Shown: piece after piece, positions 40,518 through 42,448 of the stretch
How the letters are laid out: each line of letters starts with the position of its first letter
Position numbering within the stretch: position 1 is the first letter of the stretch
Assembly: GCF_022012335.1 (NCBI RefSeq)
Contig: NZ_JAKLTO010000004.1
Span: forward strand, 1-64,000
DNA length: 64,000 bases
Direction: 5' to 3'
Origin: Flavobacterium sp. SM15
Lineage (GTDB): Bacteria; Bacteroidota; Bacteroidia; Flavobacteriales; Flavobacteriaceae
Notes under the pieces: generated by a model
Told to the model about the DNA's origin: nothing
Database searches by the model: none
What the model saw: the letters and a program-made list of their open reading frames with translations, nothing else
Made by a program: the position numbers and the translations under genes

Positions 40518-41207
40518 TTACCTCAAATTTTGGATAATTTTAGTGGCAGTAGCTGTGTTTTGTCGTTTCAATTCTTCTATGATTCGTTCTTTATCTGTTT
40601 CTTTTAATTCAGGAACTGGTTTGATGAAATTGGTTTGGTCAGCTTCTTTAAAAAATAAAGCATCAGTCCATTTATTTCGGATTCCGTCAATTACCAGATG
40701 AATTCGATCTTCATTTCCTTTATTGGTAACGGAATGGGTAAAGTTAGCATCGATATACCAGCATTCCCCTTCGTTCATTATTATTCGTTCATTGTTTAGA
40801 ATAAATTCAACTTCCGGGTTTGTTATGATTGGAATATGAATACGAAAGCATCCGTCTTCATAACCTAAACAATAATCCTTATGAGGTTTTATTTCCGCAC
40901 CAACAGCTAATCGTAATAAACGTACCGATGTTTTCTCGAATAATAGTTCATCAAGGATTTTTTTAAAGTAGTTGCAGGAATTAAGTGCTTCGGTGTAAAT
41001 AAGGCTTTTGTTCCCTAAATTCATTGCGCTAATGTTTTCCGATTTCCCATCTTCCGACATCAATGCAATGGAAGACCAATTCCCAACATAATCATTTTTA
41101 TTGAAATGATCCACCCAGTTTATTGGCACTACTTTTTCCACATCGATTTTCAATTTTTCCACATCGAAAACCATAGGGAATTTTATGTGTCTTATTAAGT
41201 TGTCCAT
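40518..41207 (-). CDS. aspartyl/asparaginyl beta-hydroxylase family 2OG-Fe(II) oxygenase
   Basis: This 229-residue protein has the double-stranded beta-helix signature of 2-oxoglutarate/Fe(II) oxygenases. The facial triad is H109-x-D111 (PHKDYCLGYEDG) and H158 (NFTHSVTNKG), and R168 in DRIHLVIDG should hold 2-oxoglutarate. It has no signal peptide, so it acts in the cytosol. Members hydroxylate peptides, free amino acids or other small molecules; the substrate is unknown. Its ATG lies 1 nt after the stop of the HEAGH gene, so the two are probably translationally coupled. It is the third gene of the operon. Confidence 0.88.
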   Translation of the reverse strand: MDNLIRHIKFPMVFDVEKLKIDVEKVVPINWVDHFNKNDYVGNWSSIALMSEDGKSENISAMNLGNKSLIYTEALNSCNYFKKILDELLFEKTSVRLLRLAVGAEIKPHKDYCLGYEDGCFRIHIPIITNPEVEFILNNERIIMNEGECWYIDANFTHSVTNKGNEDRIHLVIDGIRNKWTDALFFKEADQTNFIKPVPELKETDKERIIEELKRQNTATATKIIQNLR

Positions 41208-41208
41208 A

Positions 41209-41703
41209 TTAATCGCGTAACCATTTTTGCATTACCGGAAAAGCTTTGCGGTTATTTTTTTCAGCCCGCTCAGCACTTAGGGCAAGTCCGGCCCATTCCA
41301 AAAAAGGTAATCCTATAAAATTCTTCTGCGAATAATTTTCAATGAGCCAATCAGAATTTCCCTTGTAGCCATTTTTATGAAAAACGACTTCAAGAGGCAA
41401 TTCTAAATGATTAGCTGCAGCATATGACCATAACATGGCACCGATTTCATCGCCCTGAGACGGCCATTCTTTAGCCATAGCATCGGTACCGATAAGTTTT
41501 CTTTCACTTGCAGAAGTTACGGCAAGATGTCCGGCTTCGTGAAGTATATCACCCGGATATTGCAATTTGGAATAATCAATGTAAAGACAATCCGGACCTA
41601 ACTCAAGTCCTGGCAGAAAAGTATCGTCGTTTAATTCTTTTTCGATGGTTTTGAGTTCAATTTCTTCTAAAAAGGCAATTATTTTATGTAATTCTGCAGT
41701 CAT
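41209..41703 (-). CDS. HEAGH-motif protein of unknown function, possible zinc metallopeptidase
   Basis: This 164-residue soluble protein carries HEAGH at residues 55-59 within DILHEAGHLAVTS, a classic HExxH zinc-binding pattern. The segment QGDEIGAMLWSYAAA (from about 83) follows at a distance where a third ligand such as E86 could lie. There is no signal peptide or membrane segment. I do not recognise a named family. It sits 10 nt after the PP-loop ATPase gene and 1 nt before the oxygenase gene. Either a small metallopeptidase or a metal-binding protein that has lost catalysis is possible. Confidence 0.75.
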   Translation of the reverse strand: MTAELHKIIAFLEEIELKTIEKELNDDTFLPGLELGPDCLYIDYSKLQYPGDILHEAGHLAVTSASERKLIGTDAMAKEWPSQGDEIGAMLWSYAAANHLELPLEVVFHKNGYKGNSDWLIENYSQKNFIGLPFLEWAGLALSAERAEKNNRKAFPVMQKWLRD

Positions 41704-41713
41704 AGCTGATGTT

Positions 41714-42448
41714 TTATTTCGGAATTAGATCACAATACCAGAAACCATAATCAAAAGCTTCAGTATCATTCGTGTCACAAGCTGTGTTTGAAGTGTCAGT
41801 TTTCGGTTTTTCATATTTTCGGTAAACGATTTCGCCTAGTTCAAAATCTATCGGTTTAGAGAAAATTGGGCCGTCAAAAGTAAAGGTGTGAAATTCTCCG
41901 TTTTCTCCACAAACATCTACATCATCAGGTAAATCAGCAATAAATTGTTCGTCGATGATTCGGCCTACAAAACTTTTATCAAGATTGCGTTCGTTTACGC
42001 AAGTAACAATTGTCTTGAATCCTAAAGATAAAAACTCTTTAATTAAATCTTTAGTGTCAATTTTCCACAGTGGAAAGATTCCTTCGAGTTGCATTTCAGC
42101 TAGTTTGCTTTCACGGTATTTTCGTAAATCTTCTAAAAAAATATCGCCAAAAATTGAATGCGTTACGCCATTATTGGTGTATTGTTTTAAGGTTTCACGC
42201 ATTACGTCTTCATAAACTTCCATAGTTGGCATTTCGGGAATTTCCATTTTATGGAGTGGTAAACCGATACTTGCAGCTTGTTGTTCTAAAAGTTCAGCGC
42301 GAACCCCGTGCATGGAAATACGATTGTATTGCTTGTTCACACTTGTTAGAAGCGAAACAATTTCGATTTCAGGATTTTGAAGAGTTTTATATAAAGCCAG
42401 AGCAGAATCTTTGCCACTGCTCCAGTTAAAAATTGCTTTTGTTTTCAC
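41714..42448 (-). CDS. diphthine-ammonia ligase family (DUF71) PP-loop ATPase
   Basis: This 244-residue protein has the PP-loop SSGKDSAL at residues 10-17, which binds ATP and activates substrates by adenylation. It also has the family motif GENGEFHTF near residue 200 and the GDIFLEDLRKYRE stretch. In archaea and eukaryotes this family makes diphthamide, but bacteria lack diphthamide, so the bacterial members must act on something else. It is the first gene of an operon with a HEAGH protein and a 2OG oxygenase. A short C-terminal extension rich in Thr, Asp and Cys is unusual. Confidence 0.85.
   Translation of the reverse strand: MKTKAIFNWSSGKDSALALYKTLQNPEIEIVSLLTSVNKQYNRISMHGVRAELLEQQAASIGLPLHKMEIPEMPTMEVYEDVMRETLKQYTNNGVTHSIFGDIFLEDLRKYRESKLAEMQLEGIFPLWKIDTKDLIKEFLSLGFKTIVTCVNERNLDKSFVGRIIDEQFIADLPDDVDVCGENGEFHTFTFDGPIFSKPIDFELGEIVYRKYEKPKTDTSNTACDTNDTEAFDYGFWYCDLIPK

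Follow-up and report, generated by a model that had tools for sequence, protein, structure and literature searches.

The window analyzed here, 64,000 nucleotides of DNA from Flavobacterium sp. SM15, carries on its minus strand three ORFs that encode a DUF71 ATPase, a protein containing the motif HEAGH (the HEAGH protein), and an AspH-type Fe(II)/2-oxoglutarate (2OG) oxygenase (AspH). They are separated by gaps of 10 nt and then 1 nt, and their positions are those given in an earlier note on this DNA, which had described them as three packed enzyme genes. The DUF71 gene (41714–42448, minus strand; 244 aa, GTG start) matched PF01902 with an E-value of 9.9e-40. The HEAGH gene (41209–41703, minus strand) encodes 164 aa and the AspH gene (40518–41207, minus strand) 229 aa. 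The cluster is flanked by an M1 peptidase gene, divergent and upstream of the DUF71 gene, and by recG, which lies downstream of the oxygenase gene on the same strand.

The oxygenase scored 71.8 bits against PF05118 (E-value 7.5e-20), well above the gathering cut-off of 22.6. Residues H109 and D111 (codons of H109-x-D111, 40875–40883), H158 (40734–40736), and R168 (40704–40706, all on the minus strand) were invariant in 27 of 27 relatives. We take the first three to be the iron-binding HxD...H motif and R168 to be the 2OG-binding Arg. The nearest solved relative was L-proline cis-4-hydroxylase (4p7w; 1.9e-17 by sequence, 5.2e-14 by structure), whose PHRD...H...R aligned with this motif, and proline 3-hydroxylase was also among the closest solved proteins. 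The window oxygenase shares the PF05118-type fold with 4p7w, but the identity is only about 21%, and 4p7w acts on a free amino acid, whereas the target proposed below is a protein C-terminus. Human AspH (6yyu and others), which acts inside EGF-like domains, is a structural match from the same superfamily, with Asn/Asp as the target, as proposed here; unlike it, the window oxygenase has no TPR part and has a complete HxD.

The HEAGH protein could not be assigned to a known family. It had no match in Pfam (E up to 10), NCBIfam (E up to 1), or PHROGs (E up to 0.1), a search of PDB sequences with its profile gave no match at E up to 10, and a Pfam scan of all 54 relatives gave scattered chance matches only. 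The HEAGH residues, on whose conservation the earlier note had relied, proved to be conserved: H55, E56, and H59, like E86 and H109, were invariant in 54 of 54 relatives and in 19 of 19 sequences of a more divergent set. The HEAGH motif (residues 55–59, codons at 41527–41541, minus strand), of which both His and the first Glu belong to these residues, is therefore not a chance occurrence. HEXXH is followed by a downstream Glu, in gluzincin-like order, and this invariant Glu86 (codon at 41446–41448, minus strand) is a candidate third metal ligand. An AlphaFold2 model (pLDDT 96.6) gave no Foldseek match at E 0.001 among PDB and viral structures. The matches listed by VIA, where the absence of a family proves nothing, were zincin-like and all weak (Z <6). 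They comprised ArdC (6sna, Z 5.5), a zinc peptidase (3c37, Z 5.1), the EF-P hydroxylase YfcM (3wtr, Z 4.9, rmsd 4.3 over 106 residues), the oxygenase domain of ChlB (8s5f, Z 2.8), IrrE, and selecase. The alignments and the structural matches point to a small zincin-like metalloenzyme, which could be a peptidase or an oxygenase; the fold does not decide between the two because the weak matches include both kinds.

A metallopeptidase that processes a protein of the collar system described below is a reading to which we give slightly less than an even chance. It agrees with the gluzincin-like order of HEXXH and Glu86 and with the matches to 3c37, 6sna, IrrE, and selecase, but these are the same weak matches that also include YfcM and ChlB. 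The "putative zinc peptidase" of the earlier note agrees with the zincin-like fold, but YfcM/EpmC and ChlB are hydroxylases with such a fold.

It is rather unlikely, though conceivable, that the HEAGH protein works as a second hydroxylase beside AspH and belongs with YfcM or the alphaKG-HExxH enzymes among the non-haem iron oxygenases. The structural matches to YfcM and to the ChlB domain, and the fusion with a 2OG oxygenase reported below, would fit this reading. E. coli EpmC/YfcM resembles the HEAGH protein in its small zincin-like fold, in its two His and one Glu, which bind iron in YfcM according to PMC4231759, and in its HExxH, likewise followed by an Arg nine residues later. Its substrate is different, and there was no significant sequence link. 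None of 9 HEAGH proteins matched PF04315 at E up to 10, while E. coli EpmC, the positive control, scored 271.9 bits. Single EpmC sequences scored 20.3–24.2, but other HExxH proteins scored as high: a panel of 41 distinct HExxH proteins, which includes the EpmC sequences, reached 24.2, and the top two were unrelated peptidase-like proteins. An hhalign comparison of HEAGH with EpmC gave 26.2, compared with a mean of 13.5 and a maximum of 22.4 for shuffled columns (n = 200), which looked promising, but the comparison with other HExxH proteins did not bear it out. Membership of the EpmC family was dropped, as EpmC scores did not exceed those of other HExxH proteins. The alphaKG-HExxH oxygenases (IPR026337) of RiPP pathways (ChlB, PflC, PosC) hydroxylate or cleave peptides and were once taken for peptidases, as described in PMC12636437; the HExxH, the peptide hydroxylation, and the C-terminal peptide chemistry are points of likeness. 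In contrast, Z to 8s5f was only 2.8, the HEAGH protein had no NCBIfam match at E up to 1, and there is no short precursor gene. The EpmC profile matched two ArdC-like proteins (L297, L298) with scores under its cut-off (E 2e-4 and 7e-4), which is a hint that the zincin-like domains of EpmC and ArdC are related.

Among 60 related genomes, HEAGH and AspH were found in the same 8 (Fisher, 4e-10). A genome-wide scan for HEAGH matched 592 stretches, of which 489 encode relatives, and the best 80 loci were kept. AspH lay directly downstream of HEAGH in 32 of these best 80 loci, mostly 3 nt apart, and somewhere in the fetched locus in 37 of the best 80; in half of the loci, the two genes were apart. 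Among 40 HEAGH genomes selected because no AspH follows HEAGH immediately, 31 have a strong AspH elsewhere, 4 have only a weak partial one, and 5 have none. In two distant genomes (L125, L134), both domains are part of one fused ORF, with the AspH domain first. As judged from gene distribution and fusion, HEAGH and AspH are a real pair, and the earlier note was right to group the HEAGH protein with the 2OG oxygenase.

The pair was accompanied by tail collar proteins (PF07484). Collars were encoded in 8 of 8 related genomes with HEAGH and in 6 of the 52 others, two of these six being weak; among 395 genomes of the class, they were present in 18 of 18 HEAGH genomes versus 77 of 377 others (2e-12). 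Of 40 named HEAGH genomes, 35 had collars, and the five that lacked them were all MAGs. In F. cucumis DSM 18830 (locus L061), HEAGH, AspH, and the collars are encoded at one locus. The genome of the window has them on another contig (C3, locus L184), where the gene order is collar, collar, SBP, formyltransferase-like protein, and SprB-repeat protein, the operon being cut by the contig end. Both of these collars end in FPSRN. The remark that no precursor peptide is encoded next to the three genes holds for the window, but the likely substrate, these two collar proteins, is encoded elsewhere in the genome. The collar proteins are 170–240 aa long and have no evident signal peptide. The SBP, a Peripla_BP_6-type binding-protein-like subunit, has no signal peptide either (by eye); its gene was nearby in 26 of 34 HEAGH-positive collar loci, compared with 7 of 36 HEAGH-negative ones.

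Besides collars and the SBP, distant HEAGH loci encode formyltransferase-like, sulfotransferase-like, and methyltransferase-like proteins, additional 2OG oxygenases, a carbamoyltransferase, and a giant protein that carries SprB repeats as well as a T9SS sorting domain. Betaproteobacteria-like HEAGH genomes (Undibacterium, Burkholderiales) had collars in 6 of 7 examined, and in their collar loci AspH, a sulfotransferase, an APS kinase, and GNAT, DUF6916, and DUF4347 proteins replace the T9SS partner. These collars resemble those of phage tails and the bacterial "microcystin-dependent" proteins (MdpB-like) in having a PF07484 domain and PHROGs tail matches, but their genes lie in clusters on the chromosome, next to those for group-transfer enzymes and a giant secreted protein and not next to phage genes. 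The HEAGH-AspH pair may be an accessory modification module of this bacterial tail-collar system, a view which we hold, jointly with the mechanism proposed below, with about even confidence. We found no publication on the collar/SBP/formyltransferase/AspH cluster in a literature search that was mostly outside subscription journals, and the part of PMC9950754 available to us, on colony-spreading genes of F. collinsii, showed no link to the collar system. Some collar clusters (L127, L131, L134, L130) encode further 2OG oxygenases, of the PKHD and PhyH types. In Undibacterium (L230, L231, L234), triple collar genes are accompanied by GNAT, DUF6916, and giant DUF4347 proteins; this is a second, AspH-unlinked collar arrangement.

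AspH was also associated with O-transferases. A full-length carbamoyltransferase was found among the 60 related genomes only in G023, G029, G031, and G032 (in addition to a 37% partial match in G058), and a sulfotransferase only in G004, G006, and G008. One or the other, never both, was present in 7 of the 8 AspH genomes, and the 52 others had none save the partial match in G058; neither a carbamoyltransferase nor a sulfotransferase was found in the genome of the window. The mutual exclusion is weak on its own, because the chance of no overlap (4 and 3 of 8) is 0.07, while the distribution argues strongly for a restriction of the O-transferases to AspH genomes (7 of 8 versus 0 or 1 of 52). Within four genes, a carbamoyltransferase was present in 18 and a sulfotransferase in 10 of the 65 fetched loci with AspH, both in no locus, and a carbamoyltransferase in one (L093) of the 106 loci without AspH (171 in total). 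The carbamoyltransferase consists of PF02543 and PF16861, as do O-carbamoyltransferases of the NodU/CmcH type, but it reached only 144 bits against the NodU equivalog cut-off of 1000. An APS-kinase-like gene stands beside the sulfotransferase in L341 and L342 (by eye), and an APS kinase was confirmed by Pfam at this place in Undibacterium (L233). In G004 and G008, the sulfotransferase and the APS-kinase-like gene beside it are distant from AspH. Carbamoyl- and sulfotransferases act on a hydroxyl, a group that 2OG oxygenases are able to introduce, and this provides a chemical logic linking AspH to both.

When collars were compared by HEAGH state, they differed most at the last residue, which was Asn in 65 of 82 HEAGH-positive and in 17 of 71 HEAGH-negative collars. 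In HEAGH genomes that have no AspH (G706, G715, G718), the collars ended in SRS or PRQ; conversely, three collars of a locus with AspH but with no HEAGH in view (L254) ended in N. Because of these exceptions, the 192 distinct collars were regrouped by AspH state, leaving out L213 and L218 (no AspH state assigned), identical copies, incomplete ORFs, and one sequence with unreadable bases; the collars of two further AspH-free HEAGH genomes (G744, G746) are outside the comparison. The last residue was Asn in 96 of 109 collars from AspH genomes versus 15 of 75 from those in which no AspH was found, 58 of the latter coming from genomes seen only for about 10 kb on each side. Asn was last in 13 of these 58, and in 2 of the 17 that came from fully searched genomes with a weak AspH or none. 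In the group of unassigned AspH state (L123, L276, L279, L281, kept apart), 5 of 8 collars ended in N. Terminal Asn ranked first among 1494 column-residue tests and led the next by ten orders of magnitude (6.5e-20 versus 1.2e-10). By genome, a collar ending in Asn was present in 48 of 50 AspH genomes versus 2 of 10 that were wholly searched and had no or a weak AspH (p 7e-7). A collar tree that ignored the last eight residues gave independent pairs of 7:0 under a strict (p 0.016) and 17:2 under a loose definition (p 0.0007); only these pairs correct for descent, the other p-values ignoring kinship.

Collars of AspH genomes mostly end in ...FPSRN, and their heptapeptide GIFPSRN is more uniform at nearly every position. 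Such uniformity would fit a recognition site or a subfamily. Two predictions made beforehand held: in Pseudoalteromonas (L334), whose AspH is 35% identical, the three collars beside AspH all end in N, and the AspH-linked collars of Undibacterium G699 and G700 end in FPSRN. The exceptions were two AspH genomes that have no collar ending in Asn, G724 (FPSRP) and G526 (SRD, SRS), and two genomes with no or a weak AspH that have one, G052 (PRN) and G707 (SRN). Unlinked collars in AspH genomes (Undibacterium, G006), a weak control, ended in RN in 0 of 12 cases and in N in 6 of 12. G706, G715, and G718 keep their collars in the absence of AspH, and the HEAGH protein would therefore do something that is independent of the terminal Asn.

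From the pairing and fusion, the co-occurrence with collars, the alternative O-transferases, and the covariation of AspH with a C-terminal Asn, we infer a reaction and its site, an order of steps, a role for HEAGH, and a purpose. AspH would recognise the C-terminal collar peptide G-I/V-F/Y-P-S-R-N-COOH and hydroxylate its terminal Asn. The hydroxyl so formed would then, in many genomes, be capped, either by the NodU/CmcH-type carbamoyltransferase or by the sulfotransferase, supplied by the APS kinase. The HEAGH protein would be a partner metalloenzyme, either a peptidase or a second oxygenase, that joins the same complex or acts on the same protein. This is our best explanation, and we think it about as likely to be correct as not. 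The purpose is probably related to the cell surface or to adhesion, because the neighbouring protein has SprB repeats and is secreted by the T9SS. With less confidence, we propose more broadly that a dedicated enzyme hydroxylates the C-terminal Asn of tail collars in a phage-derived bacterial fibre of Bacteroidota and Pseudomonadota, the cap being swapped between lineages (O-sulfate, O-carbamoyl, or none) and a new HExxH metalloenzyme being the partner. If correct, this would connect an AspH-type oxygenase, so far unassigned, and a family-less HEXXH protein with a single checkable substrate and a seven-residue recognition motif, GIFPSRN-COOH, and would give a first handle on the non-phage tail collar proteins that stand beside T9SS adhesin-like genes. 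It would also add a new type of modification at protein C-termini; we know of no precedent for the hydroxylation and capping of a protein's last residue.

The nearest solved relatives of AspH, L-proline cis-4-hydroxylase and proline 3-hydroxylase, use free amino acids, which may explain the recognition of a free C-terminal carboxylate or may mean that the substrate is a small molecule. In the latter case, AspH would hydroxylate a free amino acid or small molecule, which would then be formylated, carbamoylated, or sulfated and bound by a cytosolic SBP, the collar displaying the product or being linked by lineage. The frequent SBP gene in HEAGH-positive collar loci agrees with such a scheme, which we find improbable, as it gives no reason to expect that the collar's last residue, over all other columns, should follow AspH. 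We consider it similarly doubtful that AspH modifies an internal collar residue or another protein of the cluster (the giant SprB-repeat or DUF4347 protein), and that a terminal Asn is just the mark of the collar subfamily that partners with it. In AspH genomes, collar positions -2, -3, -5, and -6 vary less as well, which a subfamily effect would also produce, and AspH lies beside SprB-repeat proteins in some loci (L346). The tree pairs argue against this, however, and Pseudoalteromonas, from another phylum, fits the terminal N as well.

The DUF71 gene is probably a neighbour, outside the HEAGH-AspH system. It was present in 30 of the 60 related genomes, that is, in 7 of 8 HEAGH genomes and also in 23 of 52 HEAGH-less ones (p 0.05). 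Of the three genes proposed to occur together, only HEAGH and AspH kept to the same 8 genomes. In 12 of the 23 HEAGH-less genomes, DUF71 adjoins the same divergent M1 gene, with neither HEAGH nor AspH between them, and the pair thus looks inserted behind an older DUF71-M1 arrangement. Within the best 80 HEAGH loci, DUF71 lay at most 1.2 kb upstream of HEAGH in 45, and DUF71 and AspH were both adjacent in 18; it was missing from this interval in 12 of the 32 loci in which HEAGH and AspH adjoin, one of these 12, L072, having too little upstream sequence to judge. It was not among the genes recognised in distant HEAGH loci. On its distribution and synteny, the three-gene operon was rejected as a functional unit. 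The pathway of the earlier note, in which DUF71, as an amidating ligase, would act before a cutting and a hydroxylating enzyme, is very improbable despite the tight packing and the presence of DUF71 in 7 of 8 HEAGH genomes, given the DUF71-M1 arrangement without HEAGH and the distant loci; of its peptide or small-molecule substrate, a peptide or protein remains plausible.

The earlier note argued that this DUF71 member needs another substrate, as bacteria do not make diphthamide; bacteria do lack the Dph6 substrate, and the protein is not a Dph6. It scored 95.6 bits against the NCBIfam equivalog for the diphthine-ammonia ligase Dph6 (cut-off, 197.3) and has GENGEFHT where the Dph6 motif, as printed in PMC3541065, is GEGGEF/YE-T/S with Glu188. 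The same paper suggests that other bacterial DUF71 proteins take part in B12 salvage. A DUF71-B12 subgroup is marked by clustering with B12 transport or cbiB genes; in the window, the genes on either side are those of the M1 peptidase and recG.

AspH relatives are also encoded on plasmids and viral contigs. We found 27 plasmid records with an AspH relative; of H1, H12, H6, and H3, only H1 (Pseudoalteromonas) has collars. On a Diaphorobacter plasmid (L335, 9980-11872), AspH and a sulfotransferase are fused into one protein, encoded next to an IPTL-CTERM protein, and an Asticcacaulis plasmid (L336, 6817-11767) encodes AspH-type proteins and several sulfotransferases. The pairing of AspH with a sulfotransferase thus extends beyond collars. 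AspH relatives are encoded by 32 viral contigs (L302-L333) as well.
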